This document shows, in pieces, positions 11,601-33,709 of a DNA stretch of 64,000 nt; position 1 is the stretch's first letter; every line of letters starts with the position of its first letter. The notes below the pieces were generated by a model that worked only from the letters and a program-made list of their open reading frames with translations, was not told the DNA's origin and searched no databases. This stretch comes from Marinilabiliaceae bacterium (lineage in GTDB: Bacteria > Bacteroidota > Bacteroidia > Bacteroidales > Marinilabiliaceae): contig JAFGBR010000018.1 of NCBI GenBank assembly GCA_016933045.1, positions 1-64,000 of the forward strand, written 5' to 3'. The position numbers and the translations under genes were made by a program.

Positions 11601-12650
11601 TTATACTATTATCATAGCATCACCATACGTTCCAAACCGATATTTTTCTTTAACAGCTATTCTATAAGCTTCCATTATAAGATCGTAACCGCCAAATGCA
11701 GCAGCCATCATTAAAAGAGTTGAGTATGGCAAGTGAAAATTTGTAATCATTGAATTAGCAACACTGAAATCGTAAGGAGGAAAAATAAATTTATTAGTCC
11801 ACCCTTCAAATGGTTTAACATGACCAAATGTTGATACAGAACTTTCCAGTGTTCGCATGACGGTTGTGCCTACTGCACAAATTTTGCGTTTCTCATCTCT
11901 CGCCTTGTTAATAACATCAGCTGCATCCTGGGTGATAAATATCTGCTCCGAATCCATTTTATGCTTTGTCAAATCTTCAACATCTACAGTCCTGAAGTTT
12001 CCTAACCCAACATGAAGCGTAACCTCTGAAAAGTTAACTCCCTTTATCTCAAGTCGTTTCATTAATTCACGACTAAAGTGCATACCGGCAGTTGGCGCAG
12101 CAACAGCACCTTCATGTTTTGCAAAAATAGTTTGGTAACGATCTTTATCTTCAGGAACAACTTCGCGATTAATGAATTTTGGAAGAGGAGTTTCTCCAAG
12201 ACTATAAAGCGTTTTCTTAAATTCGTCATAAGGTCCGTCGTATAAAAAACGAAGAGTTCTGCCTCGCGAAGTAGTATTATCAATTACTTCGGCAACTAAT
12301 AAATCATCTTCGCCAAAATAAAGTTTATTGCCAATACGAATTTTACGTGCAGGATCGACCAAAACATCCCACAAACGCAACTCAGAGTTTAACTCACGAA
12401 GCAAAAAAACTTCAATTTCGGCCCCTGTTTTTTCCTTGTTACCATATAATCTGGCAGGAAAAACCTTTGTGTTATTAAACACCATTACATCCTGATCATC
12501 AAAAAAATCAATAATATCTTTAAAAACCTTTTCCTCAATTTTTTTTGTTTGACGATTCACAACCATTAACCTCGATTCATCACGGTTAACTTCAGGATGT
12601 AAAGCAATTAATTCTTCAGGCAGTTTATACTTAAACTTGGATAATTTCAT
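11601..12650 (-). CDS. queA: S-adenosylmethionine:tRNA ribosyltransferase-isomerase
   Basis: A 349-residue QueA of normal length. The enzyme transfers and isomerises the ribose of SAM onto 7-aminomethyl-7-deazaguanine in tRNA to form epoxyqueuosine. Signatures are [11 protein letters not shown] at the start, [24 protein letters not shown], the highly conserved [10 protein letters not shown] (about residues 185-194), [13 protein letters not shown] and [12 protein letters not shown] near the C-terminus. It is the last gene of an operon with truB, uppP, DUF3098 and ftsX. The hairpin terminator follows four bases after the stop. Confidence 0.97.
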
Positions 12651-12699
12651 ATATACTATAGTTTATTAATAAAACGAGCAACTTTATACGTAGTAATTT

Positions 12700-13410
12700 T
12701 CAGTTTGTTTCAACTGATTGCAAATTTCTCTCAAAATTTTCAAGATCCAAAGCATCTTTAATATTAAATTCTCCTATTTGTGTTCTTTTTAATGCAATTA
12801 AATGAGCTCCGGAATTGAGTCTCTTTCCAAAATCGTGTGCTAATGATCGAATATAAGTACCTTTTGAACACAAAACTTTTAGTGTTAATTCGGGCATATT
12901 AAATGAAATATTTTCCAACTTAGTAATAACAATTGTACGACTCTTAAGTTCAACATCTTTACCTTTACGAGCTAATTCATATGCTTTTTTCCCGTTTACT
13001 TTTAAAGCAGAAAAAATTGGAGGAACCTGATCTATTTTTCCTATAAACGATTGTATTGCCAGGTTAACTAACTCATCATTAATATGATCAGTTGGATATA
13101 TGTTGTCGACCTGCGATTCTAGATCGTAGGTTGGAGTTGTAGCTCCTAACTCAATGGTGGCAATATATTCCTTATCTAATCCGCTAAGCTGTTCAATTTT
13201 TTTAGTTGCCTTACCAGTACAAACAATCATTAATCCGGTTGCTAAAGGATCGAGAGTTCCGGCATGTCCAACTTTAATTTTTTTTATTCCGCAATAATTA
13301 CGCAATAATATTCGAACCTTGTTAACCAAATCGAACGAAGTCCACTGATAGGGCTTATTAAATAATAATATTTGTCCTTCTTTAAAGGCTTCAACTGAAT
13401 AATCAACCAT
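12700..13410 (-). CDS. truB: tRNA pseudouridine(55) synthase
   Basis: A 236-residue TruB, which isomerises U55 in the T-loop of tRNAs. The N-terminal KPYQWTSFDLVNKVR motif, the catalytic Asp in GHAGTLDPLATGLMIVCTG (about residues 48-66), the YELARKG element and the KGTYIRSLAHDFG motif are intact. It lacks the C-terminal PUA extension of E. coli TruB, giving a compact form. It begins two bases after the uppP stop, so the two are probably translationally coupled. Confidence 0.96.
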   Translation of the reverse strand: MVDYSVEAFKEGQILLFNKPYQWTSFDLVNKVRILLRNYCGIKKIKVGHAGTLDPLATGLMIVCTGKATKKIEQLSGLDKEYIATIELGATTPTYDLESQVDNIYPTDHINDELVNLAIQSFIGKIDQVPPIFSALKVNGKKAYELARKGKDVELKSRTIVITKLENISFNMPELTLKVLCSKGTYIRSLAHDFGKRLNSGAHLIALKRTQIGEFNIKDALDLENFERNLQSVETN

Positions 13411-13412
13411 AT

Positions 13413-14192
13413 TTAACTAAGCACCAATGTAAGAACTCCTATAATAAAACAATATATAGCAAAATAAATAAGCTTACTTTTCGAAACAATTGCAATCATT
13501 GCTTTACAAGCCAATAATCCAAAAATAAAAGCTGCAATAAAACCCACTACTAAAGGTAATATGGCAGTTTGTTCATTGGCCATTTCACCACTTATCAAAT
13601 CAAGAAATACTTTCCCGAGAATGGGTATAAGAACCATTAAAAAAGAAAAGCGGGCAGCTTCACTTTTTTTATTTTTCAATAATAATGCGGTTGAAATAGT
13701 TGCACCCGAACGGCTTATTCCGGGCATAACAGCTATCATTTGTGCTAATCCAATAACAAAAGCATCTTTATACGAAATGTCACGGTTATTTGATTTTGCA
13801 TAAAATGTAAATGCAAGCATAACAGCTGTTACTATTAACATAGAACCAACAATTATAAGCTGTCCATCGAAAAACTGTTCGATATAACTTTCAAAAAGCA
13901 AACCTACTATTACAACTGGTACAGATGAAAGAATTAATTTTGATATATATTGAGTTTCATTGTTCCATTTGATAGCAAACAATCCTCCAAATAATTGAAT
14001 AATATCTTTTCGAAAAACAACCAATGTACTGCAAACAGTTGCAAAATGCACTACAATTGTAAATGTGAGGTTTTCTTGTATATCAACACCAAGTAGTGCT
14101 TTCCCCAATTCAATATGCCCACTGCTGCTAACAGGCAAAAACTCTGTTAATCCCTGTAAAACTCCAAGGATTAATGCTTCTATCCAATTCAT
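13413..14192 (-). CDS. uppP: undecaprenyl-diphosphatase
   Basis: A 259-residue BacA/UppP integral membrane phosphatase that recycles undecaprenyl pyrophosphate to the monophosphate carrier for peptidoglycan and surface glycans. Both conserved boxes are present: LQGLTEFLPVSSSGHIELG near the N-terminus (catalytic Glu and Ser residues) and MPGISRSGATIS around residues 155-166. About seven or eight membrane segments are visible. It lies between DUF3098 and truB in the ftsX operon, the usual Bacteroidota order. Its lipid carrier is what the nearby flippase-linked glycan pathway would use. Confidence 0.96.
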   Translation of the reverse strand: MNWIEALILGVLQGLTEFLPVSSSGHIELGKALLGVDIQENLTFTIVVHFATVCSTLVVFRKDIIQLFGGLFAIKWNNETQYISKLILSSVPVVIVGLLFESYIEQFFDGQLIIVGSMLIVTAVMLAFTFYAKSNNRDISYKDAFVIGLAQMIAVMPGISRSGATISTALLLKNKKSEAARFSFLMVLIPILGKVFLDLISGEMANEQTAILPLVVGFIAAFIFGLLACKAMIAIVSKSKLIYFAIYCFIIGVLTLVLS

Positions 14193-15496: not shown

Positions 15497-16906
15497 TTAA
15501 ATATTTTTTTGAGATGAGTGAAGTTTATTTAATTTTTGTACAATTTGTTCTCCATTTAATGATTCGGCTCCCTTTTCCATTATTTTTTTTAACAACGATT
15601 GATAAAATATTGTTATACCGGGGTATTTATATTCATCAAACCTACAATTGTGCCAAAGCAAACTAAAAAAACCACCAAATTTTTGCACTTCACTAATTAT
15701 CTTCTCCGATTTAACTGCAATTGCTTCATAACTTTGCTTTTGGTAATCGAGAACTGTGGCTTCCATAAGGGTTAAGGGAAGCTCCCAAATATCAATCATT
15801 TTATCTTTATTAAAATCGTATGGTTTAAACGGGTAACAATAACCATTTCTAAAACCTTCATGTTCGGGAAAAGCCAATGAGGTATCGTAAACAAATCCAG
15901 CATCTAACTGATTTTTTAAAGTATTAGGCATCTTAAATCTTAGAAAGTGCTGCCTTATACCTAAAGGATAAATATTTGTTATAGCTTTAAATAAATGATA
16001 CTCTTCTTTTAAATATTCGGCATTATTATACGAATCGAAAGACCCATGAACACCTACTTCAAACCCTTCATCAATAAGTTTTTTAATTAGTTTTTCTATT
16101 TTTAAATCGTAAAGTTTATACCTCGAATCGCGTTTTTTATCGCGTTTGTGTAAAAAATAGTAAGCCGATTTAATATTTAGTTTACTTTCAATTTTGGTTA
16201 GAAACCCAAAATTCCACCAAGGATCATTTTTTGATAGAAAAAACATATAAAAAATACCCTTTAAAACCTGTACAAGTGTTTTAATCCAACTATAATATAA
16301 AGGAGCTAATCCTATTAGCTGTTTTATTTTGTAGGCCGTTTCCCTAAAATGATAATACTCGGTTCGATCAACATCGTGACTTAAAAAAAAACCAAAGGAA
16401 CTAAAAAGACGAAGTCGTTTGATAGGTATATTATGAATTTTACCAAAATGTTCAAACCCAGAAATAATTATATCGAAATAGTAATTTACTAACGGAATGT
16501 GGGCACAATTAAATTTTCGTTGCAAAGAATCATCATAACGAAACCGACTAAAATGATCGAGTTGGTTATTATTATCAATTTCCTGTAACCCACACAGAAC
16601 ATAAAAAGCAGCTTTTAGGAAATCGTGATGAAAAAGCAAATTACTGTTTTCATCGATCGAAAAAAGCTCCGAACAATCCTTTATCGGAAAGAGAACAGGT
16701 ATTTTTTGGTTCAAATACAAAATAGAATCAAACGAAATATCCTTTTCACCCGAAAGAACAAAAATAATTGAGTTATTTATATCATTTATCCCCGATTCTA
16801 TGTCAGTACAAAACTTAATAACAATGTTATCGGGAATAATAATATGCTGCTTTAAATGAAAAAAAACATATTCAATCTGGTTTGAGTTCAAATTTTCAAT
16901 TTCCAT
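15497..16906 (-). CDS. polysaccharide deacetylase family protein (DUF7033-type N-terminus)
   Basis: A 469-residue protein with an N-terminal domain (about residues 1-135, DUF7033-like from memory) followed by a NodB-type TIM-barrel carbohydrate esterase. Metal-site features are FLSHDVDRTEYYHF (about residues 174-187, replacing the usual TFDDG), GVHGSF (about 283-288) and SLLWHNCRFDEYK near the C-terminus. These enzymes N- or O-deacetylate surface glycans or cell-wall sugars. No signal peptide is visible, so it may act in the cytoplasm on a glycan precursor or nucleotide sugar. It lies 31 bases downstream of the YfhO gene, next to the glycan cluster. Confidence 0.8.
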   Translation of the reverse strand: MEIENLNSNQIEYVFFHLKQHIIIPDNIVIKFCTDIESGINDINNSIIFVLSGEKDISFDSILYLNQKIPVLFPIKDCSELFSIDENSNLLFHHDFLKAAFYVLCGLQEIDNNNQLDHFSRFRYDDSLQRKFNCAHIPLVNYYFDIIISGFEHFGKIHNIPIKRLRLFSSFGFFLSHDVDRTEYYHFRETAYKIKQLIGLAPLYYSWIKTLVQVLKGIFYMFFLSKNDPWWNFGFLTKIESKLNIKSAYYFLHKRDKKRDSRYKLYDLKIEKLIKKLIDEGFEVGVHGSFDSYNNAEYLKEEYHLFKAITNIYPLGIRQHFLRFKMPNTLKNQLDAGFVYDTSLAFPEHEGFRNGYCYPFKPYDFNKDKMIDIWELPLTLMEATVLDYQKQSYEAIAVKSEKIISEVQKFGGFFSLLWHNCRFDEYKYPGITIFYQSLLKKIMEKGAESLNGEQIVQKLNKLHSSQKNI

Positions 16907-21961: not shown

Positions 21962-22717
21962 ATGAACCAAAATATAGAAAAAACAGAATTTGACTTTTTA
22001 GTTAATAGTTATAATGAAGAAATTACAAAAGATTTGGGTCGATTTTCAAAATTTAAAGATACAGCTCATATATATAAAACTAAAACACTAAAAAAACTAA
22101 CACAAAAAAATCCTATTCATGGCATTTTAGATTTTGGTTGTGGTATTGGATTAAATATTCCTTATTTAAAATCTCAATTCCCTCATTGTCAGCTTTATGG
22201 TTGTGATGTTTCAAGTGAATCAATTGATGTAGCAAAAAAAACTTTTAACAATTGTATATTTTCTACAATAAAACATCCTAATGAGCTTGAATTTTACAAG
22301 GGTAAAATTGATGCAGTTTTTATAAGTACTGTATTACATCATATACCAACAAACGAACACCAACAATGGCTATACAGCTTATATAACATACTTAACCTCA
22401 ATGGGATATTAGTTGTTTTTGAACATAATATGAGAAATCCATGGACAAATAGAGTTGTGAAAAAAAGTAAAATAGATATTGATGCAACAATGCTTTCACC
22501 AAAATACTGCAAAAAACTTGTATCCAATTTAAATATAAAAACAATCGAACATAATAAGGAAACATTTTTTATCAACACAACTTATCTTCAATATACCTAT
22601 TTTTTTCCTTGGAGAAACAAAATAACTGAAACAATTGAAAGATTATTTGCCTGGCTTCCTTTAGGTGCTCAGTATTGCGTTTATACTAAAAAACATAATA
22701 CCAATGAGAACAATTAA
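21962..22717 (+). CDS. class I SAM-dependent methyltransferase
   Basis: A 251-residue class I methyltransferase. SAM-binding motif I is ILDFGCGIGLNIPYL (about residues 55-69), followed by LYGCDVSSESIDVA (motif II) and an AVFISTVLHHIP segment (motif IV). The acceptor is unknown. The position between a GT2 and a large membrane protein suggests it methylates a sugar in the surface glycan or a lipid intermediate. The next gene starts within its last 14 bases, pointing to translational coupling. Confidence 0.85.
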   Translation: MNQNIEKTEFDFLVNSYNEEITKDLGRFSKFKDTAHIYKTKTLKKLTQKNPIHGILDFGCGIGLNIPYLKSQFPHCQLYGCDVSSESIDVAKKTFNNCIFSTIKHPNELEFYKGKIDAVFISTVLHHIPTNEHQQWLYSLYNILNLNGILVVFEHNMRNPWTNRVVKKSKIDIDATMLSPKYCKKLVSNLNIKTIEHNKETFFINTTYLQYTYFFPWRNKITETIERLFAWLPLGAQYCVYTKKHNTNENN

Positions 22718-24377
22718 TAAAGACGTTTATTTTTTAATGGGATTATTTTTTTTAGTACTCTATTACACCCCTTTTTTTGTATTTTATAAAAATTCATTTA
22801 TTCTTATTCACGATAATTTAGATTGTTTATTTAATCTGCAAATAATTCCGAATTATATTTCAAAATCAGGCCGAATTGAACAATTCATGAATGGAATATC
22901 TTCTGATATGTTTCCATTATCACTTAATTTTACTTCACTATTATTAACAAAACTTGACCCATTTATTGGGTATTTAATTAATGACTTTTTTGTTCGTGTT
23001 ATCGGTTTTATAGGAATGTTTTTATTACTTGATATTTATATCATAAAAAAACATTTAAATAATCGCAATATTTACATCTCATCAATAGCTTTAATATATT
23101 CATTAATAGGTAGTTATAATATATATGGATTAACAATAATGGGTCAGCCTTTATTATTATTAATGTTTATTGATATTTACAAGGGCAATATTAAATGGTG
23201 GAAATTTCTTATAATTTTTTTATTCGCATTTTGGAGTTCATTAATATATATTGGCGTTTTTATCTGTATTATATTATCAGGAGTTTGGCTTCATTACTTC
23301 ATTAAAAATAAAAAACAATTAAATACTCCATTTCTATTATCCATTTTAACATTAATTGTTGGATATATTATATCAGAACATCACCTGATAATGTCAAATA
23401 TATTGGCATCAGATATAATCAATCACAGGGTTGAATGGAGTATTAAACCCTTATCAATAAGTCAAAACATTCAAAAAATATTTTGGGAATTTAGTATTTT
23501 CACGCAACGTCATTCGGGACGTTTCTGTACAATTTTAATTGTTTTTACTACACTATTATCTATAATATTTTCAAAAAAAATTGATAAACTCACTTCATAC
23601 CTGCTAATTATAATATCAAACATTATATTTTTTGTTTTTATTTTCCATTATATCAAGGTTCTATTCGGTAGCCATATTATTCTTTTAAAAATATTTCAAT
23701 GGGATAGGTTTTACTTTTTTCTTCCAACATTATGGATAATCTTATTTGCCAATTCTATACAACAAATATCTCTTTCAAAAGCCTTTAGAAATAATGCATT
23801 GTGCTTTTTTTTATTATTTACTATGATTATTAATGTTTCTTTATTCAATAAAGAATTAAGAACTAATATTTATCATTTTTTTAGTGAAAACATAAAATAC
23901 CCAACATATAAGCAATATTTTGATATTAAACTTTTCAATAACATTAAAAAAGAAATTAATAAAGATCAAGATAAATATAAAGTAGTTAGCTTAGGTTTAC
24001 ATCCATCAATTGCTTTTTTTAACGGGTTTTATTGTATTGATGGTTATACTTTCTCATACCCATTAGCTCATAAACATAAGTTTAGAAAAATAATTGAAAA
24101 AGAATTAAATAAAGATAAAACGTTAAAAGATTATTTTGACAACTGGGGAAGTAGATGTTACTTATTTTCATCTGAGTTAAAGCAAAATTATCTTTTTGGG
24201 AAAGATAATAATAAAGAAATAACTAATTTATCAATTGACATTAACCAGTTCAAAAAAATGGGAGGGCATTATATTATCTCTTCTGTTAAAGTGAATAATA
24301 TCAATGAATTAGGGTTAGTATTAGACAAAACTTTTGAAGGTGAATTTTGGAAGATATATTTATACAGGGCATTATAA
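22704..24377 (+). CDS. large multi-pass membrane protein, probable GT-C-like
   Basis: A 557-residue protein started at the ATG at 22704, which overlaps the methyltransferase by 14 bases; a longer frame from 22665 would overlap by 53. It has about 12 hydrophobic helices and a soluble C-terminal domain of about 150 residues. After TM1 comes HDNLDCLFN, an acidic motif in the first extracytoplasmic loop like the catalytic Asp of GT-C glycosyltransferases. It resembles DUF6044/YkoS-type proteins (from memory, not verified). Together with the GT2 enzyme it could be a lipid-phosphate-sugar-dependent transferase. It converges on pseI with 21 bases between. Confidence 0.65.
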   Translation: MRTINKDVYFLMGLFFLVLYYTPFFVFYKNSFILIHDNLDCLFNLQIIPNYISKSGRIEQFMNGISSDMFPLSLNFTSLLLTKLDPFIGYLINDFFVRVIGFIGMFLLLDIYIIKKHLNNRNIYISSIALIYSLIGSYNIYGLTIMGQPLLLLMFIDIYKGNIKWWKFLIIFLFAFWSSLIYIGVFICIILSGVWLHYFIKNKKQLNTPFLLSILTLIVGYIISEHHLIMSNILASDIINHRVEWSIKPLSISQNIQKIFWEFSIFTQRHSGRFCTILIVFTTLLSIIFSKKIDKLTSYLLIIISNIIFFVFIFHYIKVLFGSHIILLKIFQWDRFYFFLPTLWIILFANSIQQISLSKAFRNNALCFFLLFTMIINVSLFNKELRTNIYHFFSENIKYPTYKQYFDIKLFNNIKKEINKDQDKYKVVSLGLHPSIAFFNGFYCIDGYTFSYPLAHKHKFRKIIEKELNKDKTLKDYFDNWGSRCYLFSSELKQNYLFGKDNNKEITNLSIDINQFKKMGGHYIISSVKVNNINELGLVLDKTFEGEFWKIYLYRAL

Positions 24378-24398: not shown

Positions 24399-25415
24399 TT
24401 ATTCAATGTCAGATAATTCAAGAGGCTTTCCTTTACTAAGATTTGATTTTGCATGTTTTCCAATAATTTGATTCAAATAACCTGGATGTAATCCAATACC
24501 TGGTCTAATTGATCGAATATTTTCTTCGCTAAATAGTTCTCCGGCTTTTATATCTTTAACAACAAAAAGTGAACGCCTCCGATTCTGGTCAGTTTCTGAA
24601 ACATTATAGTTCACTTGTCCTAATGCTGCTTCGGCTTGACGTACATTTATAACCATTTCAGCAAATTCGTTTGGTTCCATTGAAAAGGCCGAATCTGGAC
24701 CTCCCAACTTTCTGTTCAGGATGAAATGTTTTTCAACAACAGTTGCTCCTAATGACACTGCCACAGTTGGAACAATATTTCCCATAGTATGATCGGAAAC
24801 CCCAACTTCAACACCAAACTGTTTTTTCATATCAGGTATTGTAAGCAGGTTAGCCTGCTCAATGGTTGCGGGGTATTGAGAAGTACATTTTAATAAGGTA
24901 ATTTGATTGTTTCCAACTTGCTTACACACATCTAATGCCATTTGAATATCACTTTTTTGAGCAACCCCGGTTGAAATAATCATTGGTTTCCCTTTCGATG
25001 CTGCATACTCAATTAATGGAATATCGGTAATCTCGAACGATGCTATTTTATAAATTGGATTATCAATTGTTTCTAAAAAATCAACCCCCTCCTTATCGAA
25101 AGGCGAAGAGAAAAATACTAACCCCAGTTTTTCAGCAATCTCTTTAAGTTTTGGTTGCCATTTGTAAGGCATTGCAGCTTCTTCGTATAATTTCCAAGGT
25201 GTATACCCTTTCCATAAACCTTCAGTTTTAGGTGCAAAAATACCTGTATCCAAATCAATAGTCAAACTTTCGGGTTTATAGGTTTGAACTTTTACAGCAT
25301 CCGCACCGCTGTTTGCCATTGCTTCTATGGTTTTAACTGCAATATCAAAATTATTATTATGATTAGCTGAGAGTTCAGCTATTATGAATACAGGCTGATT
25401 AGTATTGTTCATCAT
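24399..25415 (-). CDS. pseI: pseudaminic acid synthase
   Basis: A 338-residue NeuB-family synthase that condenses 2,4-diacetamido-2,4,6-trideoxy-L-altrose with phosphoenolpyruvate to give pseudaminic acid. The N-terminal TIM barrel starts PVFIIAELSANHNN and includes GADAVKVQTYKPESLT, FSSPFDKEGVDFL and VGVSDHTMGNIVP. The C-terminal SAF/antifreeze-like domain (about residues 280-338) has RRSLFVVKDIKAGE and SIRPGIGLHPG. The SANHNN and YTPWKLYEEA features favour PseI over sialic acid NeuB. The start abuts the ATP-grasp stop; ATG at 25410-25412 is an equally good start. It is the last gene of the pse operon. Confidence 0.93.
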   Translation of the reverse strand: MMNNTNQPVFIIAELSANHNNNFDIAVKTIEAMANSGADAVKVQTYKPESLTIDLDTGIFAPKTEGLWKGYTPWKLYEEAAMPYKWQPKLKEIAEKLGLVFFSSPFDKEGVDFLETIDNPIYKIASFEITDIPLIEYAASKGKPMIISTGVAQKSDIQMALDVCKQVGNNQITLLKCTSQYPATIEQANLLTIPDMKKQFGVEVGVSDHTMGNIVPTVAVSLGATVVEKHFILNRKLGGPDSAFSMEPNEFAEMVINVRQAEAALGQVNYNVSETDQNRRRSLFVVKDIKAGELFSEENIRSIRPGIGLHPGYLNQIIGKHAKSNLSKGKPLELSDIE

Positions 25416-26665
25416 TAATTAAAAATAGTATTATTTTTATTGTAGCAGTTGTATTCAACTAGATTAATATCATTTACTAAAATATTATTAAATACTTCTT
25501 CTGTTGTTTTTAAAGCTTCTTCTCTACTATTACCAACAGCAATTATAACTCCAAATCTTCCAACTGAACTATTTAAATCAGGAACACTAAAGGGAAGTTC
25601 ATGATGAAAACGACAGAGCTTATAATTTGGACTCTCTAATTCATAATCTGTTATACTATTTACCTTATTAACAGAATGGTGAATATTCATTCTTGTAATA
25701 AATTTTACTGATACTGCATTGTGTTTAGGTTCTGTTATCATTTGTTCAAAACTCTTTTTTTCTCCCAAACAATTCCAAATGGTTGTTTTAACAATATCAA
25801 CACCACTTAAATACATAGCAACCTCTCTTAAATAACCTCCCGGAACACGAATTGCAATTTCCAAAATTATTGGCTCTCCATCTTTTAAAATTAATTCACA
25901 AGTTGCTACTCCATTTTCAAGTTCAATTGATTTTATAGCAGTTTCACATATTGTCATAATTTTTTCTTCAATATCTTTTGAAATAACAGAAGGGCCAATA
26001 TGCCTAACTGCAATTCCAAAATTCTCATCTTTTAAAGTAATTCTATCAGACAATGCTAAAAAATGAACTATATTATTTATTACCATCATTGTTACATGAA
26101 CTTCAGGCCCAATAACAAGGCAATCAATAAGAGCTAATTTTGATACAGAAAAATTTAAAGAATTGTTTAACGCATCTTCTAGTTTATCAATATCATCTAT
26201 TATATAGGTTCCTCTTTGGCCAGAACTATCAACCGGTTTAATAATCCATGGGCCTTCTGTTTTTTGTAAAAATTCAAAAGCATCATTGTATTTATTAGTA
26301 ACAATAAAAGGAGATACAGGAACATTGTTTTTAAGAAATGCTTTTCTCATTTCGTACTTATTAGTTGCTTTAATGGCAGTTTCTAAGCTAAAACCATTTA
26401 AATTTAATGCATCTGATACCGCTGCAACAGTTGGCACTGCTGTTTCTGAACAAACAGTCATTACTCCATCAATTTTTTCATTTTTTGCAATTAAGATATT
26501 CCCTTCAATATCTGTAGTGCTACACTTATAGGCTTTATGAGCATATTTTACACCAGGTGCTGAAAGGTTCATATCAGAAGTGATAACTAAATAACCCATC
26601 TCTTTAGCTATCTTAATTGCCTCAACCTGTTCAATACCGGCACCTACTATTAATATTTTCTTCAT
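25415..26665 (-). CDS. ATP-grasp ligase inside the pse operon
   Basis: A 416-residue protein with the three ATP-grasp subdomains. The N-terminal Rossmann-like PurK/CPSase domain starts KILIVGAGIEQVEAIKIAKEMGY. The ATP-binding lid contains WIIKPVDSSGQRGTYII (about residues 133-149). The metal site is CELILKDGEPIILEIAIRVPGG (about 257-278). Such enzymes join a carboxylate, via an acyl phosphate, to an amine or thiol. It is not one of the six standard Pse enzymes, yet it sits between pseG and pseI with spacings of 12 and -1 bases. It may attach an amino or hydroxy acid to an amine of the nonulosonate; this is inference. Confidence 0.85.
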   Translation of the reverse strand: MKKILIVGAGIEQVEAIKIAKEMGYLVITSDMNLSAPGVKYAHKAYKCSTTDIEGNILIAKNEKIDGVMTVCSETAVPTVAAVSDALNLNGFSLETAIKATNKYEMRKAFLKNNVPVSPFIVTNKYNDAFEFLQKTEGPWIIKPVDSSGQRGTYIIDDIDKLEDALNNSLNFSVSKLALIDCLVIGPEVHVTMMVINNIVHFLALSDRITLKDENFGIAVRHIGPSVISKDIEEKIMTICETAIKSIELENGVATCELILKDGEPIILEIAIRVPGGYLREVAMYLSGVDIVKTTIWNCLGEKKSFEQMITEPKHNAVSVKFITRMNIHHSVNKVNSITDYELESPNYKLCRFHHELPFSVPDLNSSVGRFGVIIAVGNSREEALKTTEEVFNNILVNDINLVEYNCYNKNNTIFN

Positions 26666-26677
26666 AATTCAAATGAA

Positions 26678-27718
26678 TTATTTTATAATTATTTCATCAA
26701 TTAAACTATCAATTATTCTATCAATCCCTTCTGGGTTAATTATCTCATTAAATTGAGATAATTTCAAGTTATTTAATCGTTTCGTATCAAATAATTCTTT
26801 TAACTCCGTCATAATTTTTATTTGATGCGGAATTATACTAATATCTCCAATTTTATATATATAATTCAATTTATGTAAATAATTCGTATATTCTATTTCT
26901 CTTGTGCTTGAGGAAAAAACAATTAGCGGAATTCTAAACAATGCCATTTCCCACATTGCCATTCCGGCTGATGTTATTGCAACATCAACCTGATTATACA
27001 AATAATCAAGATTAGGGACATCAACATGTAACTCTGTTATCTGTTGAGTTGAAGTATCAATACGTTGTTTAATATCGTGAATATCGGTATTTAACGATCC
27101 ACAAACAACAATTATTTTTTTTACATACTCTCCTAATTTTTGAATTATATCTAAAAAAAACAAAGTTAAATGATGGTTATCTGCATTTCCAAAAATCAAC
27201 AATATAGTTATGGGTAATTGAAATGACTTTTTTTTAGAAACTACATTTCGAAATTCATCCCTAAAAATCATAAAACCAGGTCCTAAAAGTTTTTTTGTAT
27301 CAACAGAAGTTTGATAAATGTGCTTTTGTGAAATAATATTCGGGTTTATTAGCAGATTTGTTGTAATTGGATATTTATCTGTAATTGTAAAACAAGCTGT
27401 TTTTACAAAGTGCTTTCTTAACTCATCAATTAAATGACCCGAATAAAAATTATAATCATCGGTATCAAATAAAATCAATGATTTTTGAGGAATGTGTTTA
27501 ATATATTCTTCTGGATTAAGTTGTTGCCCATTATCAAGAATAATAATTTCAAAACCTTCATTTATAACTTTATTTTGTATTTTAAATGGTGAGTCTGAAA
27601 AAATAAATTTAACGTTTATTCCTCTATCTCTTATTTTTCTAGCTAAAGATAAAGATCTGTATATATGACCTCCTCCAATTTTCTCATTGGCTTCTGCTTT
27701 AATAAAAATAATGCTCAT
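26678..27718 (-). CDS. pseG: UDP-2,4-diacetamido-2,4,6-trideoxy-L-altropyranose hydrolase
   Basis: A 346-residue GT-B-like hydrolase that removes UDP from the altrose intermediate in the pseudaminic acid pathway. Its N-terminus contains IGGGHIYRSLSLARKI, the G-G-G-H-x-x-R loop with the PseG catalytic histidine. Near the C-terminus VDVAITSAGMAMWEMALFRIP forms the UDP-binding half, as in MurG-like folds. It overlaps pseH by four bases (ATGA type). Confidence 0.9.
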   Translation of the reverse strand: MSIIFIKAEANEKIGGGHIYRSLSLARKIRDRGINVKFIFSDSPFKIQNKVINEGFEIIILDNGQQLNPEEYIKHIPQKSLILFDTDDYNFYSGHLIDELRKHFVKTACFTITDKYPITTNLLINPNIISQKHIYQTSVDTKKLLGPGFMIFRDEFRNVVSKKKSFQLPITILLIFGNADNHHLTLFFLDIIQKLGEYVKKIIVVCGSLNTDIHDIKQRIDTSTQQITELHVDVPNLDYLYNQVDVAITSAGMAMWEMALFRIPLIVFSSSTREIEYTNYLHKLNYIYKIGDISIIPHQIKIMTELKELFDTKRLNNLKLSQFNEIINPEGIDRIIDSLIDEIIIK

Positions 27719-28215
27719 TCTAAATAATAATCATATTCATAATACAGCTCATTCATTCCAAAACGCTTACGTATTTCTGTCAATTCAGACTTAATAAATC
27801 CATTCTTTTCAACAACCTTTATCGAACCAATATTTTGTGAATTGATCCATGCTTTTACACTTGAACAATCCATGTTCCTCAATTTTTCTTTATGTGAAAT
27901 GTTAATAGCCTCCTTTACCAAAAAAGTAGCATGACCATTTCCCTCAAAAGCTTCTTTTACGGAATAACCTATTGCTATATAATTTGTATAAAAGTCGATA
28001 TGAAGAGAACCAACACACTCTTTATTAACATATAAAAGGTAAATATTACGTTTTGAGTCTTCTATTCTTTCAAAAAACCATTTTTTAAAAGAATCATATT
28101 GAGGAGGCTCTTTATATCCAGTCCAATACAAGTTTTTATGTTCACTTCGTATTGCATAATAATCATCATAATTATCAAACGCAGCTTTAATTAAAATATA
28201 ATTATGATTGTTCAT
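27715..28215 (-). CDS. pseH: UDP-4-amino-4,6-dideoxy-N-acetyl-altrosamine N-acetyltransferase
   Basis: A 166-residue GNAT-fold protein that would acetylate the 4-amino group using acetyl-CoA. It shows DDYYAIRSEHKNLYWTGY near the N-terminus, a GYSVKEAFEGNGHATFLVKEA segment carrying the acetyl-CoA loop, and a NIGSIKVVEKNGFI motif typical of GNAT C-termini. The PseH call rests on its position between pseF and pseG as much as on sequence. A different acyl donor is possible given the ATP-grasp neighbour. Confidence 0.85.
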   Translation of the reverse strand: MNNHNYILIKAAFDNYDDYYAIRSEHKNLYWTGYKEPPQYDSFKKWFFERIEDSKRNIYLLYVNKECVGSLHIDFYTNYIAIGYSVKEAFEGNGHATFLVKEAINISHKEKLRNMDCSSVKAWINSQNIGSIKVVEKNGFIKSELTEIRKRFGMNELYYEYDYYLE

Positions 28216-28218
28216 AAT

Positions 28219-28920
28219 CTAAATATCATCTCTATTATATTGGCTCAATGAACTAAAATACAACTTAAATTTTAATTCAGCTAATCTCCAATCTACTTCA
28301 TTATCAATATCTTGCACTTCTAGTTCGGATATTTCAAAACCATATTTATTTTGTCCTCTTAATCCCGATTCATATCTCATCCAATAAAACTGACCTGAAT
28401 CATGAAATGCTGGCTCCAAATCCTGAGAACGAGTTTTTTGATGTTCGGGATAAAACATTTCAACTATACCATTTTTCATTTTTAAAGCTCTTTGAATTGG
28501 ATAAGAAAAACGAACTATCGGTCGAACAGAATCGACATTGTTTTCGAGCAAAAGTGAATACCCTTTTTTTAAAGTTACTATTGTAATTAAACAGGCAGTT
28601 GGCAGAATGCAACATATATTATCGAACACTAATCCACAACTTTTATACTGTTGCTTTACATCATCTATCACATCTGCAAGTGTAGCATAATCATCTGAAG
28701 CTTTTTCCCCTCTATAAAAAGGCACTTTTGCACCATATTGTATTGCAACTTCTGCAATCTCTTCATCATCGGTCGATACCATTACCTCATCAAAAAAATT
28801 ACTCTCTAACGCAACTTCAATGGAATAAGCAATAATGGGTTTACCCAAAAAGTCTTTAATATTTTTACGAGGAATACGTTTGCTTCCTCCGCGAGCCGGA
28901 ATAACACAAAGATTACGCAT
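28219..28920 (-). CDS. pseF: pseudaminic acid cytidylyltransferase
   Basis: A 233-residue CMP-nonulosonate synthetase that activates pseudaminic acid with CTP. The N-terminal P-loop-like motif NLCVIPARGGSKRIPRKN and the EVMVSTDDEEIAEVA segment are intact. I chose the ATG at 28918-28920, so the protein starts MRNLCVIPARGG as usual in this family; a start at 28929 adds three residues. The start overlaps the pseC stop, implying coupling. The CMP-Pse product is the donor for a transferase, possibly the DUF115/GT42-like protein upstream in the same operon. Confidence 0.93.
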   Translation of the reverse strand: MRNLCVIPARGGSKRIPRKNIKDFLGKPIIAYSIEVALESNFFDEVMVSTDDEEIAEVAIQYGAKVPFYRGEKASDDYATLADVIDDVKQQYKSCGLVFDNICCILPTACLITIVTLKKGYSLLLENNVDSVRPIVRFSYPIQRALKMKNGIVEMFYPEHQKTRSQDLEPAFHDSGQFYWMRYESGLRGQNKYGFEISELEVQDIDNEVDWRLAELKFKLYFSSLSQYNRDDI

Positions 28921-30064
28921 AAAACTCATTTATTGTTTTGATAACAAATACCTGCTCGTCATCGGTTAACGTTGGATACATTGGCAAACTAATACAACAG
29001 CTGTAATATTTCTCAGCAACAGGCAAATCACCAATATTCCAACCAAATTGTTTATAATAAGGCATAGTATGAACCGGAATGTAATGTATTTGTGCAAAAA
29101 TATTATTATCTCTAAGAAATTCATGAAGTCCTTTTCTATTCTCTACTTCAATAACATACAAATGGTATGCATGACCTTCAACAAACCCCGACTGACCGAT
29201 TATATATGACTTATCTTTAAAGGCTTCTTTATAGATATTAGCAATTTCCCTCCTGCGATTTAAGCCCTCATCTGCTTTTTTAAGCTGACTATTTCCCAAT
29301 GCTGCCTGAATATCGGTAAGACGATAATTATAACCTAACTCTTGCATTTCATAATACCAACCGCCATGATTATCATGTAACAGACCCGGATCTTTTGTAA
29401 TTCCATGAGTCCTAAGTAACTGAATCTTTTTATATAAAACTTCGTTATTGGTAGTAATCATACCACCCTCACCACAAGCAATGTGTTTTACCGGATGAAA
29501 AGAGAATACCGTTATATCGGAATATAATCCATTCCCACATAATTGCTTTTGCCCATTCGAATCAATAAAAAATCCACCGGGTGCATGACATGCATCTTCA
29601 ATAATCCAAAGTCCATACCTATCAGCCAACTTTCGTAATTCTTCCATATTAACCGGATAACCGGCAAAATCGACTGGTATAATTCCCTTGTAGGTTCCAT
29701 AAGGAGATTGGGCTAACAATTCCTCAACTTTTTTAATATCCAAACAATAGTTATGAGGATCAATATCAGCAAATACCACTTCTCCTCCACAATAACGTAT
29801 GCAGTTAGCCGAAGCGGCAAATGTAATAGGAGTAGTAATAACTTTATCATTTGGCTTAACATTTAATGCTAAAGCTGCCAAATGAAGAGCCGCAGTTCCG
29901 TTAGAAACAGCCACGGCATACCTTACCCCAACATAATTGGCAAATGCTTTTTCAAATTCACTAATGGCTGGTCCCTGTGTAAGAAAATCACTTTTTAAAA
30001 CAGCAACAACAGCATCAATATCGTCTTGTGTTATATTTTGTCGACCGTAGGGAATAGGGTTCAT
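28913..30064 (-). CDS. pseC: UDP-4-amino-4,6-dideoxy-N-acetyl-beta-L-altrosamine transaminase
   Basis: A 383-residue PLP-dependent DegT/DnrJ/EryC1 aminotransferase. It starts PIPYGRQNITQDDIDAV, typical of PseC. It has AVSNGTAALHLAALAL for the PLP phosphate and the Schiff-base lysine in VFSFHPVKHIACGEGGM (about residues 183-199). It converts the 4-keto product of PseB to the 4-amino sugar with glutamate as donor. It starts directly before the pseB stop with no spacer, and its end overlaps pseF. Confidence 0.95.
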   Translation of the reverse strand: MNPIPYGRQNITQDDIDAVVAVLKSDFLTQGPAISEFEKAFANYVGVRYAVAVSNGTAALHLAALALNVKPNDKVITTPITFAASANCIRYCGGEVVFADIDPHNYCLDIKKVEELLAQSPYGTYKGIIPVDFAGYPVNMEELRKLADRYGLWIIEDACHAPGGFFIDSNGQKQLCGNGLYSDITVFSFHPVKHIACGEGGMITTNNEVLYKKIQLLRTHGITKDPGLLHDNHGGWYYEMQELGYNYRLTDIQAALGNSQLKKADEGLNRRREIANIYKEAFKDKSYIIGQSGFVEGHAYHLYVIEVENRKGLHEFLRDNNIFAQIHYIPVHTMPYYKQFGWNIGDLPVAEKYYSCCISLPMYPTLTDDEQVFVIKTINEFYA

Positions 30065-31072
30065 TTAAAGTTTAAATTTTGGATCAACAAATTGTTTTAT
30101 TTTTTCACGCATCGACTCAACAGTCTCCCAGTCATTATTGGCTCCTGAATTGTATCTAAACCCTTTTTCAACTTCCCAGGCATTAAAGTGCTTAATATAT
30201 TTCTCTTTTTTGGCATCGGTTGCCAAAATAGCATAATATTTATCAAACTCAATGGTATTAAATGAATCACTTTCGGTAATCATCTCTTCATGCAGTTTTT
30301 CTCCGGGTCTTATTCCAATATCTTCCAATATTGCATTAGGGGCAATAGCTTTAGCTACTGTTTCTATTTTATATGAAGGTATTTTAGGCACAAATATTTC
30401 GCCCCCCAAAGCATTCTCAATTGCCCAAAGTACCATCTCTACCCCTTCTTCGAGCGATATATTAAAACGGGTCATTTCTTTGTGAGTAATGGGCAATGTC
30501 TCTCCTTTTTTTGCTTTTTCAATAAAAAAAGGAATAACGGAACCTCTTGACCCCATTACATTTCCATACCGTACTACAGAAAACCTCAAATCGCGCGATC
30601 CTTTTACATTATTGGCTGCAATGAATAATTTATCGGACACTAATTTAGTGGCACCATATAAATTTATTGGGGCAGCTGCCTTATCGGTTGATAACGCAAC
30701 AACAATTTTTACATTTGTATCAAATGCTGCATTAATAATATTTTCGGCTCCTAATACATTTGTTTTAACAGCCTCCATTGGATTATATTCGGCAGTTGGT
30801 ACTTGTTTTAAGGCGGCTGCATGAATAATTACATCAATACCTTCGCAAGCACGTTTAAAACGTTCTCCATCACGTACATCGCCAATAAAAAAACGTACCT
30901 GAGGAAATTTGGTTTTTGGATAATACTGAGCCATCTCAAATTGTTTAAGCTCATCGCGCGAGTATATTACTAGTCGTTTTACGTTTGGGTAACGTTCAAG
31001 AATCATTTTGGTAAACATTTTACCAAATGATCCGGTTCCTCCGGTTATTAGTACTGATTTATTCTCTAACAT
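30065..31072 (-). CDS. pseB: UDP-N-acetylglucosamine 4,6-dehydratase (inverting)
   Basis: A 335-residue short-chain dehydrogenase/reductase. This first Pse enzyme dehydrates and C5-epimerises UDP-GlcNAc. The NAD(P) loop is ITGGTGSFGKM (about residues 9-19). The active-site triad region is ALSTDKAAAPINLYGATKLVSDKL, with D-K before the Y-x-x-x-K, as in PseB/FlaA1 soluble dehydratases. RPGEKLHEEMI near the C-terminus is also typical. Its start overlaps the upstream DUF115-like gene by 14 bases, tying that gene to the pathway. Confidence 0.95.
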   Translation of the reverse strand: MLENKSVLITGGTGSFGKMFTKMILERYPNVKRLVIYSRDELKQFEMAQYYPKTKFPQVRFFIGDVRDGERFKRACEGIDVIIHAAALKQVPTAEYNPMEAVKTNVLGAENIINAAFDTNVKIVVALSTDKAAAPINLYGATKLVSDKLFIAANNVKGSRDLRFSVVRYGNVMGSRGSVIPFFIEKAKKGETLPITHKEMTRFNISLEEGVEMVLWAIENALGGEIFVPKIPSYKIETVAKAIAPNAILEDIGIRPGEKLHEEMITESDSFNTIEFDKYYAILATDAKKEKYIKHFNAWEVEKGFRYNSGANNDWETVESMREKIKQFVDPKFKL

Positions 31073-31952
31073 TTGAATCTATTTTTTTTCGCTCAAAAGC
31101 ATCAATAAATGAATTATCTGTAGCGTTATATATTTTAATATTTCTTGAAATAGCATATTCATTAATCTCAAAATAACCTTTGAAAGTTAAATAAAATTTA
31201 TGAAGTATCTCGTGTAACTTTCGGGGGCGTACTCCCAAATGACTCATAGGCTTAGCTTTTACATGGTCGTAATCATAAAAGTGTTTCTGACAAATAAGTG
31301 CCTCATTGTTTTCATTCACACTAATTTCTTTTAACCACGAATGATCAACGCCAAGTAAAAATATGTTTTTGTAACCAATGTTTATCAACAACATTAGCGA
31401 CGGTATTACTACATTATGAGGACGTGGCATTCCTAAGTTGTTTCGGAAAAAAATTCGATTAATAATCTTTAATCCTTCAACTGGTGTGGGATTAAAATAG
31501 ATAATATTAATATACTTATTATCCGATATTATTTTTTGCCAAAACAAGTATTTTCTCGATGCAAATGGTATAAATAAATAAAGTGGCCAGTTAACTTTTT
31601 CTTTTAATTCATTAAAAAGCTTTAATCGGGCTTTAATATAATTTTCAGTCACATTATCTTCCCACAATTCGGGAGCATTAACAATATGATATTTAGGTTT
31701 TGTATCGGTAAAAAGCTTTGATGAAGTAGAAAAATTTACAGTTAAAAAATCATATCCCGAATAATCAAACTCATTATAATCGAATGTATTTACCGAAGGT
31801 CCGTTTGCTAGTATAATTACCTTATTGTTTATCGGTTTAATATTGTTAATACTTTTTTTAAACTTCGATAAAATGATAACTTTCAGTATTGTACCTACTG
31901 ATAAAACTAAATTTTTAAAAAATTCATTTATTTGAACTAAGGTATCTATCAT
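31059..31952 (-). CDS. DUF115/GT42-like protein, candidate pseudaminic acid transferase
   Basis: A 297-residue protein. Near the N-terminus it has KVIILANGPSVNTFD (Gly51-Pro-Ser), the loop shared by GT42 sialyltransferases (CstI/II) and DUF115/Maf-type proteins. In the middle RPHNVVIPSLMLLINIGYKNIFLLGVDHSW (two adjoining segments, about 177-206) has the helix plus G-V-D-H motif of that group. The C-terminal IKIYNATDNSFIDAFE also resembles GT42 C-termini. Its stop lies inside pseB, so it is translated with the CMP-Pse pathway. Transfer of Pse from CMP-Pse to a surface glycan is inferred; another sugar transferase role is possible. Confidence 0.65.
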   Translation of the reverse strand: MIDTLVQINEFFKNLVLSVGTILKVIILSKFKKSINNIKPINNKVIILANGPSVNTFDYNEFDYSGYDFLTVNFSTSSKLFTDTKPKYHIVNAPELWEDNVTENYIKARLKLFNELKEKVNWPLYLFIPFASRKYLFWQKIISDNKYINIIYFNPTPVEGLKIINRIFFRNNLGMPRPHNVVIPSLMLLINIGYKNIFLLGVDHSWLKEISVNENNEALICQKHFYDYDHVKAKPMSHLGVRPRKLHEILHKFYLTFKGYFEINEYAISRNIKIYNATDNSFIDAFERKKIDSNVRE

Positions 31953-32890: not shown

Positions 32891-33709
32891 TTACCGCCTT
32901 GCCTTAACTAATAATCCATTCCCAATTTTATGATCTCCTTTGGTATCGATATAATTTAGTATAGCTGCAACCGGGTAAGTAATAATATAATAAACAGGAA
33001 GTAAAATAAATAATACCTTACTAAAATTAAGCGCAATAATTGGCCATTTCATCGATAGTTTCCAGGCTAACTTACCCGGCAAACCATAAGTAAACTTAAC
33101 ATCAACATTTCTAAAACCGGCTGTAGCTAGTTTTTCTCTTATCTCTTCTATATTATACCCATCACGTACATGTTCATCAACAAACGAAGCCGATGCTTCA
33201 TGATGTTCATGTTCTTCATCGTGTTCCCCTGCATCCGATGGTGTAGTAATAATTAATAAACCATCATTGGAAAGACAGTTGTAAAAGTTTTTAAGCACAG
33301 AACGATCATCTTCTATATGCTCCATAACATCGACAGATAGTATTAAATCGAACCGTTTATCTGTAATAAAATTGGTTAAATCGGCAAAGTCAAATTTAAC
33401 CCGGTTTCCCAGTCCTTGTTTCTTAAAAAACTGGTTACAATCATTAATCTGCTCTGTTTTTACATCAACACTAAATATATTTGCTTCAGGAATTAGCTTT
33501 GCCATTCGATAAGAATATTGTCCGTAACCCGAACCGGCATCTAAAATATCTTTTGGACTATTAGGTGACGCTGCAAGTATTCTTAATTCCTTGTTCACAT
33601 ACCATGCTCGTAAAAATAACAAATCAAGAAGCTTATAAAATGTTATCCTTAAAATTGGCAGTGAATTAAAAAATTTACCAAGTGTTCGTTTTATTGGGTC
33701 GTATTGCAT
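32891..33709 (-). CDS. class I SAM-dependent methyltransferase
   Basis: A 272-residue methyltransferase. Motif I is ILDAGSGYGQYSYRMA (about residues 55-70), then IFSVDVKTEQI, and FDLILSVDVMEHIEDD as motif IV/V. A His/Glu-rich loop (EHDEEHEHHEA, about residues 167-177) could bind metal or interact with a partner. The C-terminus has a hydrophobic stretch (ALNFSKVLFILLPVYYIITYP) suggesting membrane association. It follows the next gene upstream by a single base. It probably methylates a glycan or lipid-linked intermediate; substrate unknown. Confidence 0.85.
   Translation of the reverse strand: MQYDPIKRTLGKFFNSLPILRITFYKLLDLLFLRAWYVNKELRILAASPNSPKDILDAGSGYGQYSYRMAKLIPEANIFSVDVKTEQINDCNQFFKKQGLGNRVKFDFADLTNFITDKRFDLILSVDVMEHIEDDRSVLKNFYNCLSNDGLLIITTPSDAGEHDEEHEHHEASASFVDEHVRDGYNIEEIREKLATAGFRNVDVKFTYGLPGKLAWKLSMKWPIIALNFSKVLFILLPVYYIITYPVAAILNYIDTKGDHKIGNGLLVKARR

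Follow-up and report, generated by a model that had tools for sequence, protein, structure and literature searches.

What does an ATP-grasp ligase contribute when its gene lies inside an operon for pseudaminic acid (Pse)? The question is raised by a stretch of 64,000 nucleotides (the window) from a Marinilabiliaceae bacterium (assembly GCA_016933045.1, contig JAFGBR010000018.1, positions 1 to 64,000). The genes are transcribed in the order MptE-like gene, pseB, pseC, pseF, GNAT gene, pseG, ATP-grasp gene, and pseI (Table 1). A preliminary description of this DNA had reported the ATP-grasp open reading frame (ORF), the gene order around it, and spacings of 12 and -1 bases, and all of these were confirmed. 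A gap of 12 bp (26666-26677) separates the pseG stop from the ATP-grasp ATG, and the ATP-grasp stop and the pseI start share 1 base at position 25415. The family and the context of the gene favor, by a modest degree, a role in which the ligase would form an amide between a non-acetyl carboxylate and the amine that PseC produces (N-7 of Pse), the position of PseH.

By family, the window gene is a genuine ATP-grasp carboxylate-amine ligase, for which catalysis is predicted. Two Pfam models matched the protein above their cut-offs, PF02655 (45.4 bits, cut-off 23.2) and PF02222 (39.6 bits, cut-off 27). In an alignment of 14 family members, K103, K143, E269, and R273 are invariant, and 5 members have Asp or Gln in place of E257. 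We take K103 and K143 to be the ATP-binding lysines and E269 and E257 to be acidic metal ligands. The intact ATP-binding and metal site noted earlier agrees with the domain score and with the invariance of K103, K143, and E269. The best PDB match of the sequence was 4DIM from Anaerococcus prevotii, named phosphoribosylglycinamide synthetase. When a profile of the 14 members was compared with PDB, 4DIM also ranked first (355 bits), followed by the L-amino-acid ligases BL00235, BacD, and RizA. The same proteins, 4DIM and the L-amino-acid ligases, were the top folds for an AlphaFold model of middling quality (mean predicted local distance difference test score (pLDDT) of 65.2, residues 304-416 below 50). 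In the fold alignment, 4DIM shares 24% identity with the window ligase. BL00235 (3VOT), RizA (4WD3), and BacD (3VMM) share the profile match and the predicted overall fold, but only 15-20% identity. The window ligase was not filed as BacD because the BacD model NF053745 gave 37.9 bits against a cut-off of 850. We know of no pse context for the L-amino-acid ligases.

The operon order is not due to chance, because all seven genes stand in the same order in a genome from another genus of the same family. In that genome (G010; sampled genomes are numbered G and loci L), the ATP-grasp protein is 55% identical, and locus L019 repeats exactly pseB-pseC-pseF-GNAT-pseG-ATP-grasp-pseI. Matches at E<=1e-20 were found in 13 of 100 genomes including the window's own, that is, in 12 of 99 others. 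In the order sample, 3 of 393 genomes matched at E<=1e-40, and in the phylum sample 2 of 395 matched at E<=1e-35, with the window genome counted in both and at most four candidates scored per genome; no further close orthologues were found in either sample. No relative was found in the viral contigs scanned. A scan of genome contigs gave three loci, of which L003 alone informed the context. The match in L004 was read from its sequence as a PurD-like gene and was set aside as not informative on Pse.

In the proposed mechanism, the cytoplasmic ligase would activate a carboxylate from ordinary metabolism, an amino acid or a hydroxy acid, as an acyl-phosphate, and the acyl-phosphate would then be joined as an amide to a free amine of a Pse precursor. 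Such a transfer to a sugar amine would be expected from the chemistry of the family. The likeliest acceptor would be the 4-amine of UDP-4-amino-4,6-dideoxy-AltNAc from PseC, which later becomes N-7 of Pse, and the modified sugar would then be carried to CMP-Pse by PseG, PseI, and PseF. N-acylation is regarded as the likeliest chemistry and the PseC amine as the likeliest target because family members adjoin amine-making aminotransferases and most ligase-bearing nonulosonate loci showed no GNAT. In clusters without a GNAT, the ligase could stand in for PseH (TIGR03585). The proposed acceptor position is the same for both, but PseH is a GNAT using acetyl-CoA, whereas the window enzyme is an ATP-grasp ligase. 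In the window and in G010, the neighboring GNAT might add an acetyl group to the alpha-amine of the aminoacyl group attached by the ligase. We infer the acceptor, the position, the acyl group, and the GNAT role as the likeliest ones from sequence and gene context.

The GNAT in the pseH place bears directly on this mechanism. The preliminary description had counted all six CMP-Pse enzymes in the operon, a count that was not confirmed. PseB, PseC, PseF, and PseI exceed their NCBIfam equivalog cut-offs. The PseG-like protein falls below its own (Table 1), as is also the case in 20 of the 57 other PseG-match genomes of the phylum sample, which likewise lack any match above the cut-off. The window GNAT matches GNAT models in Pfam, and no PseH match at E<=0.001 was found for it in the NCBIfam scan. 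With an opened limit, TIGR03585 gave 21.1 bits for the G010 counterpart and a still lower score for the window GNAT (Table 1); the cut-off is strict, being passed in only 2 of the 66 genomes or records searched, so that it is a weak test of PseH identity. Judged by these models, the GNAT of the window and G010 operons is no recognizable PseH.

As the GNAT is unlike PseH in both operons, the simplest joint model would be aminoacylation followed by N-acetylation. In such a two-enzyme module, the ligase would aminoacylate the PseC product and the GNAT would acetylate the amino acid, so that the CMP-Pse formed would bear a 7-N-(N-acetylaminoacyl) group, and adjacent ATP-grasp and GNAT proteins would also serve bacillosamine-type sugars (L003, contig C9). 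The module is put forward tentatively and is judged somewhat unlikely. Among known sugars, 4-amino-4,6-dideoxyglucose occurs with N-acetyl-alanyl and N-acetylglycyl amides (PMC3210612). The window's genome has another, distant member of the ATP-grasp family on contig C9 (L027:428-1627), directly followed by a gene for a PseH-like GNAT (1635-2159, 77.4 bits). A PseH-like GNAT adjoins the ATP-grasp gene in L003 also.

The neighborhoods of PseG were surveyed across the window's phylum. Of 395 genomes, the window's included, 58 held a PseG match (TIGR03590, E<=1e-15), and one stretch per other genome (57 in total) of up to ~20 kb, shorter at contig ends, was surveyed; second PseG matches in G268, G244, and G410 fell outside the surveyed stretches. 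A strong ATP-grasp match of the window type lies beside PseG in 2 of the 57 loci (L118 and L119), and an ATP-grasp gene as the rule in pse loci of this phylum was rejected. L118 has NeuB-type and PseG-like genes; because neither PseB nor PseC lies within the stretch, it is called a nonulosonate locus and not a proven Pse locus. Distant ATP-grasp proteins were found in L098 and L101, both ATPgrasp_Ter/ATP-grasp_3 in Pfam and that of L101 PRK12767-like, and L065 has one 22-bit ATP-grasp match. The distant gene of L101 (7969-8904) adjoins a PseG-GNAT fusion; that of L098 lies at 12617-13564. Locus L121 (G418), located via the ligase, combines the ligase gene with PseB, PseC, PseF, a short NeuB, a weakly matching PseG, reductase and methyltransferase genes, and a glucuronate isomerase.

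The family was also found on plasmids and in a second phylum. Among plasmids, 35 records matched and eight neighborhoods were examined, two of which are nonulosonate clusters. In Aureibacter tunicatorum (L125), the order is pseB-pseC-pseF-ATP-grasp-PseG-like-hexapeptide acyltransferase-pseI. The cluster of Solidesulfovibrio carbinolicus (L126) holds genes for NeuB, pseF, PseG-like, methyltransferase, FabG, transketolase, methyltransferase, ATP-grasp, pseB, and pseC. A DegT aminotransferase gene lies within 2 kb in plasmid loci L122, L123, and L124, and not in L127, L128, or L129. In L122 (Enterococcus hirae), genes for a dehydratase, a DegT aminotransferase, an oxidoreductase, a sugar transferase, and the ATP-grasp protein are grouped; no GNAT was found in the stretch, and an "acyltransferase family protein" is encoded further along. 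In the phylum of G837 (the genome with locus L004), probably Pseudomonadota, 7 of 349 genomes held the family at E<=1e-60. Five of these seven stretches (L138-L142) have pse or NeuB genes, L144 has a DegT aminotransferase, and L143 has neither. The query alignment used for this count (A3, five candidates scored per genome) is biased because 6 of its 8 rows are nonulosonate-associated. Over the family, a DegT aminotransferase lies within 2 kb in 13 of 36 rows, and 12 of the 36 have none in the stretch. An association of this ATP-grasp family with nonulosonate genes is supported by the operon conserved in a second genus and by the recurrence of the family in nonulosonate clusters; within the window's phylum it is a minority trait (2 of 57).

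Two further gene classes were observed near ATP-grasp genes in nonulosonate clusters. PIG-L type de-N-acetylases are encoded in L101 (5640-6350) and L118 (10745-11467), which suggests deacylation followed by re-acylation in these clusters. Amidohydro_2 (PF04909) genes are present in L141 (5195-5986), L142 (8879-9682), and L118 (8840-9676), and L141 and L142 also have a radical SAM/SPASM protein.

The presence of GNAT genes, scored by a GNAT profile built in this analysis, was then compared between loci with and without the ligase. Of 55 sampled pse loci lacking the ligase (L098 and L101 being counted among these), 38 had a GNAT, as against none of the five stretches of L118, L119, L121, L125, and L126 (Fisher p=0.005). 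None was found in the stretches of L138-L142 either, giving 0 of 10 ligase-bearing nonulosonate clusters outside the window's clade. Similarly, TIGR03585 had no match at E<=1e-6 in the genomes of L118, L119, and L121, nor in the plasmid records of L122, L124, L125, and L126, where the search covered the plasmids and not the chromosomes. This contrast favors a ligase that takes the position of PseH. It is suggestive only, given the relatedness of the loci, the shortness of some contigs, the placing of L098 and L101 in the group lacking the ligase, the cut clusters, and the hexapeptide acyltransferase of L125.

Several observations weigh against acylation of the PseC amine by the ligase. When the window and G010 are counted, the GNAT contrast weakens to 2 of 7 versus 38 of 55 (p=0.086). 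Both of these operons keep the GNAT; this does not square with a ligase that merely takes over from PseH, and that reading was rejected for the window. Among the loci without the ligase, 17 of 55 likewise have no GNAT, some of them on short contigs. The hexapeptide acyltransferase of L125 is possibly the acetyltransferase replacing PseH there. The pse cluster is truncated on one side in the stretches of L138, L141, and L142, and a GNAT beyond the cut would be invisible; nor are the loci independent of one another. L121, L126, and L138-L142 hold extra genes, and their product may differ. Finally, only one close orthologue was found among the 99 other genomes searched.

The conserved GNAT can be read in another way, as a divergent PseH acting on N-7, with the ligase acting on N-5 after deacetylation, or on the free hexose or Pse after PseG. 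The retention of the GNAT in both orthologous operons, the location of the ligase gene between pseG and pseI, the PIG-L type deacetylases that accompany ATP-grasp genes in L118 and L101, and the known N-5 variants (PMC6388019) are consistent with this explanation. However, no Pfam deacetylase was found among the operon proteins scanned, and the nearest weakly deacetylase-like ORF scanned (15497-16906) lies ~7.5 kb from pseI and reached 18.4 bits for PF22537, with a cut-off of 27. L119 and L121 showed no GNAT, and no deacetylase was found among the ORFs scanned there with Pfam, which were part of the ORFs (L119:6653-7597 matched nothing). This explanation is judged unlikely. Joining of an amine to a sugar carboxylate, either C-1 of Pse or a uronic acid in the same glycan, is considered improbable. 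We know of no C-1 amide of Pse. The TupA-like ATP-grasp domain of Cj1438 does amidate glucuronic acid, at its C-6 carboxylate (PMC11800379), but that domain is of a different ATP-grasp type, and genes of the present family often adjoin those of amine-making aminotransferases.

The nearest characterized enzymes, being L-amino-acid ligases, would allow a ligase that makes dipeptides or small peptides, which another enzyme would later add to the glycan; no peptide-transfer enzyme was recognized among the eight operon proteins scanned, and there is little likelihood of this route. A housekeeping or unrelated ATP-grasp protein of the PurD type, located here by chance, is highly improbable. The name of 4DIM and the rare, scattered distribution of strong family matches would agree with such an origin, but the conserved operon order in G010 argues against it. 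The model for housekeeping PurD (GAR synthetase, TIGR00877) gave 51.2 bits against a cut-off of 288. The name of 4DIM is itself probably wrong, because an ATP-grasp protein from a polysaccharide locus of Parabacteroides distasonis, encoded beside a DegT aminotransferase, matches 4DIM at 478 bits. Clustering with a housekeeping ATP-grasp family, which the preliminary description had named as an outcome that would speak against it, was thus not found; among solved structures, 4DIM and the L-amino-acid ligases stand nearest. Acylation of the PseC amine remains the preferred explanation.

Phylogenetic analysis of the family was performed on two sets, a first tree of 36 rows (7 nonulosonate-labeled) and a second tree of 37 rows (12 labeled), with two L128 sequences, two L129 sequences, one L005 sequence, and L032_8588 left out of the second as long or distant. 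In the 37-row tree, the window and G010 ligases join at 100/100. The sfm-type rows, named after the Shewanella operon described below, group at 99/95 (L121, L126, L138, L139, and L140), within which L126, L138, L139, and L140 group at 100/98. The Aureibacter ligase groups with the 4DIM-like P. distasonis protein at 100/98. The nonulosonate label changes 4 times in the 37-row tree and 3 times in the 36-row tree, with at least 2 changes forced by well-supported branches in each. Neither tree supports one origin in nonulosonate clusters with no later loss. The forced changes would be either two gains or one gain and one loss; repeated recruitment is likely, although one gain with later losses would also fit.

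ATP-grasp genes from flagellin-glycan or nonulosonate loci had been published before (PMC3765264, PMC5207246, PMC4000134), a point that the preliminary description had missed. The pattern is already hinted at in flagellin glycosylation, and the conserved pse operon form is a variant of it. In Shewanella oneidensis, sfmE (SO_3265) is the ATP-grasp gene of the flagellin-modification operon sfmABCDE; its deletion shifts the flagellin mass slightly less than other sfm deletions do, and the cells still swim (PMC3765264). The glycan consists of mono-N-acetyl Pse and a nitrogen-free unit of 236/250/264 Da (PMC3765264). This unit would fit an amide on a free amine, a reading that is ours and not that of the authors. 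By description, SfmE resembles the window ligase as an ATP-grasp protein of 412 amino acids accompanied by a NeuB-type synthase, in an organism with PseB/PseC and a Pse-type glycan. Unlike the window, Shewanella has no clear PseH, PseG, PseI, or PseF orthologues according to that report (PMC3765264). The sfm operon also has genes for a thiamine pyrophosphate (TPP) enzyme, a reductase, and a methyltransferase, whereas none of the sfm-type set (short NeuB, TPP enzyme, reductase, methyltransferase) was found beside the ATP-grasp gene inside the window operon; methyltransferase genes at 21962-22717 and 32891-33709 stand apart from the operon.

By gene class, L126, L138, L139, and L140 are sfm-type clusters beyond the two reported species of Shewanella. 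The genes of these clusters encode a short NeuB, a TPP enzyme or transketolase, FabG, methyltransferases, the ATP-grasp protein, a "glycoside hydrolase" ORF, PseB, and PseC, not all being present at each locus. The set of short NeuB, TPP enzyme, reductase, and methyltransferase genes is complete in L126 and L138, and L139 has no methyltransferase match.

In Clostridioides difficile, a mutant of the ATP-grasp gene CDR20291_0245 is without the peptidylamido-sugar of type B flagellin glycosylation (PMC5207246). This gene is similar to the window ligase gene by description in lying near a putative sugar aminotransferase gene (FdtB-like 0247), but no Pse pathway is described in the accessible part of that report (PMC5207246). 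In Clostridium acetobutylicum, CA_C2189, an "ATP-grasp amino acyl ligase" near spsE (PMC4000134, Table 2), has a nonulosonate neighborhood like the window ligase and a different gene set, again by description. In the open-access text examined, we found no report that such a ligase had been assayed with a nonulosonate precursor, most subscription papers being outside the search. The open-access papers searched likewise gave nothing linking pseudaminic acid with carbamoyl phosphate synthase, nor ATP-grasp with bacillosamine.

These observations bear on a gap, namely the enzymes that add non-acetyl N-acyl groups to nonulosonic acids. To our knowledge, several such groups have no assigned enzyme. 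Bacterial nonulosonic acids bear many N-acyl groups at C-5 and C-7 (PMC6388019), and the gene responsible for the glyceroyl group on Tannerella forsythia Pse "remains elusive" according to a 2018 report (PMC6120980). The family offers a testable enzyme class for nonulosonate N-acyl variants and would help to explain their chemical variety. If the family acylates a PseC-type amine, such modifications could be predicted from sequence and exploited in chemoenzymatic synthesis, and a testable biochemical role would follow for sfmE and for C. difficile 0245. If the two-enzyme module is true, bacteria would have in ATP-grasp ligation a second way of general use, besides the acetyl-CoA transferases, to make N-acyl amino sugars.

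Table 1 Features of the Pse operon in the window, with the model scores on which they are assigned.
Feature	Position	Strand	Evidence
PseI, pseudaminic acid synthase	24399-25415	minus	TIGR03586 467.8 bits, cut-off 340.25
ATP-grasp carboxylate-amine ligase (predicted), 416 aa, ATG start	25415-26665	minus	ORF; PF02655 45.4 bits
PseG-like UDP-sugar hydrolase, divergent, no GNAT fusion	26678-27718	minus	TIGR03590 137.6 bits, cut-off 153.55
GNAT N-acetyltransferase in the pseH position, marginally PseH-like	27715-28215	minus	PF13302 42.2 bits; TIGR03585 16.6 bits, cut-off 93.1
PseF, CMP-Pse synthetase	28219-28929	minus	TIGR03584 276.2 bits, cut-off 205.7
PseC, aminotransferase making the free 4-amine	28913-30064	minus	TIGR03588 488.8 bits, cut-off 423.5
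PseB, 4,6-dehydratase	30065-31072	minus	TIGR03589 506.5 bits, cut-off 407.75
Weakly MptE-like protein upstream of pseB	31059-31952	minus	PF01973 20 bits, below cut-off 34.6

Two genes flanking the operon core were also observed. A DUF6044 protein (446 bits) is encoded on the opposite strand at 22665-24377 and adjoins pseI. The MptE-like protein is a candidate Pse transferase and a putative member of the operon. Its homologues directly adjoin PseB in three other pse loci (L082, L087, and L114).

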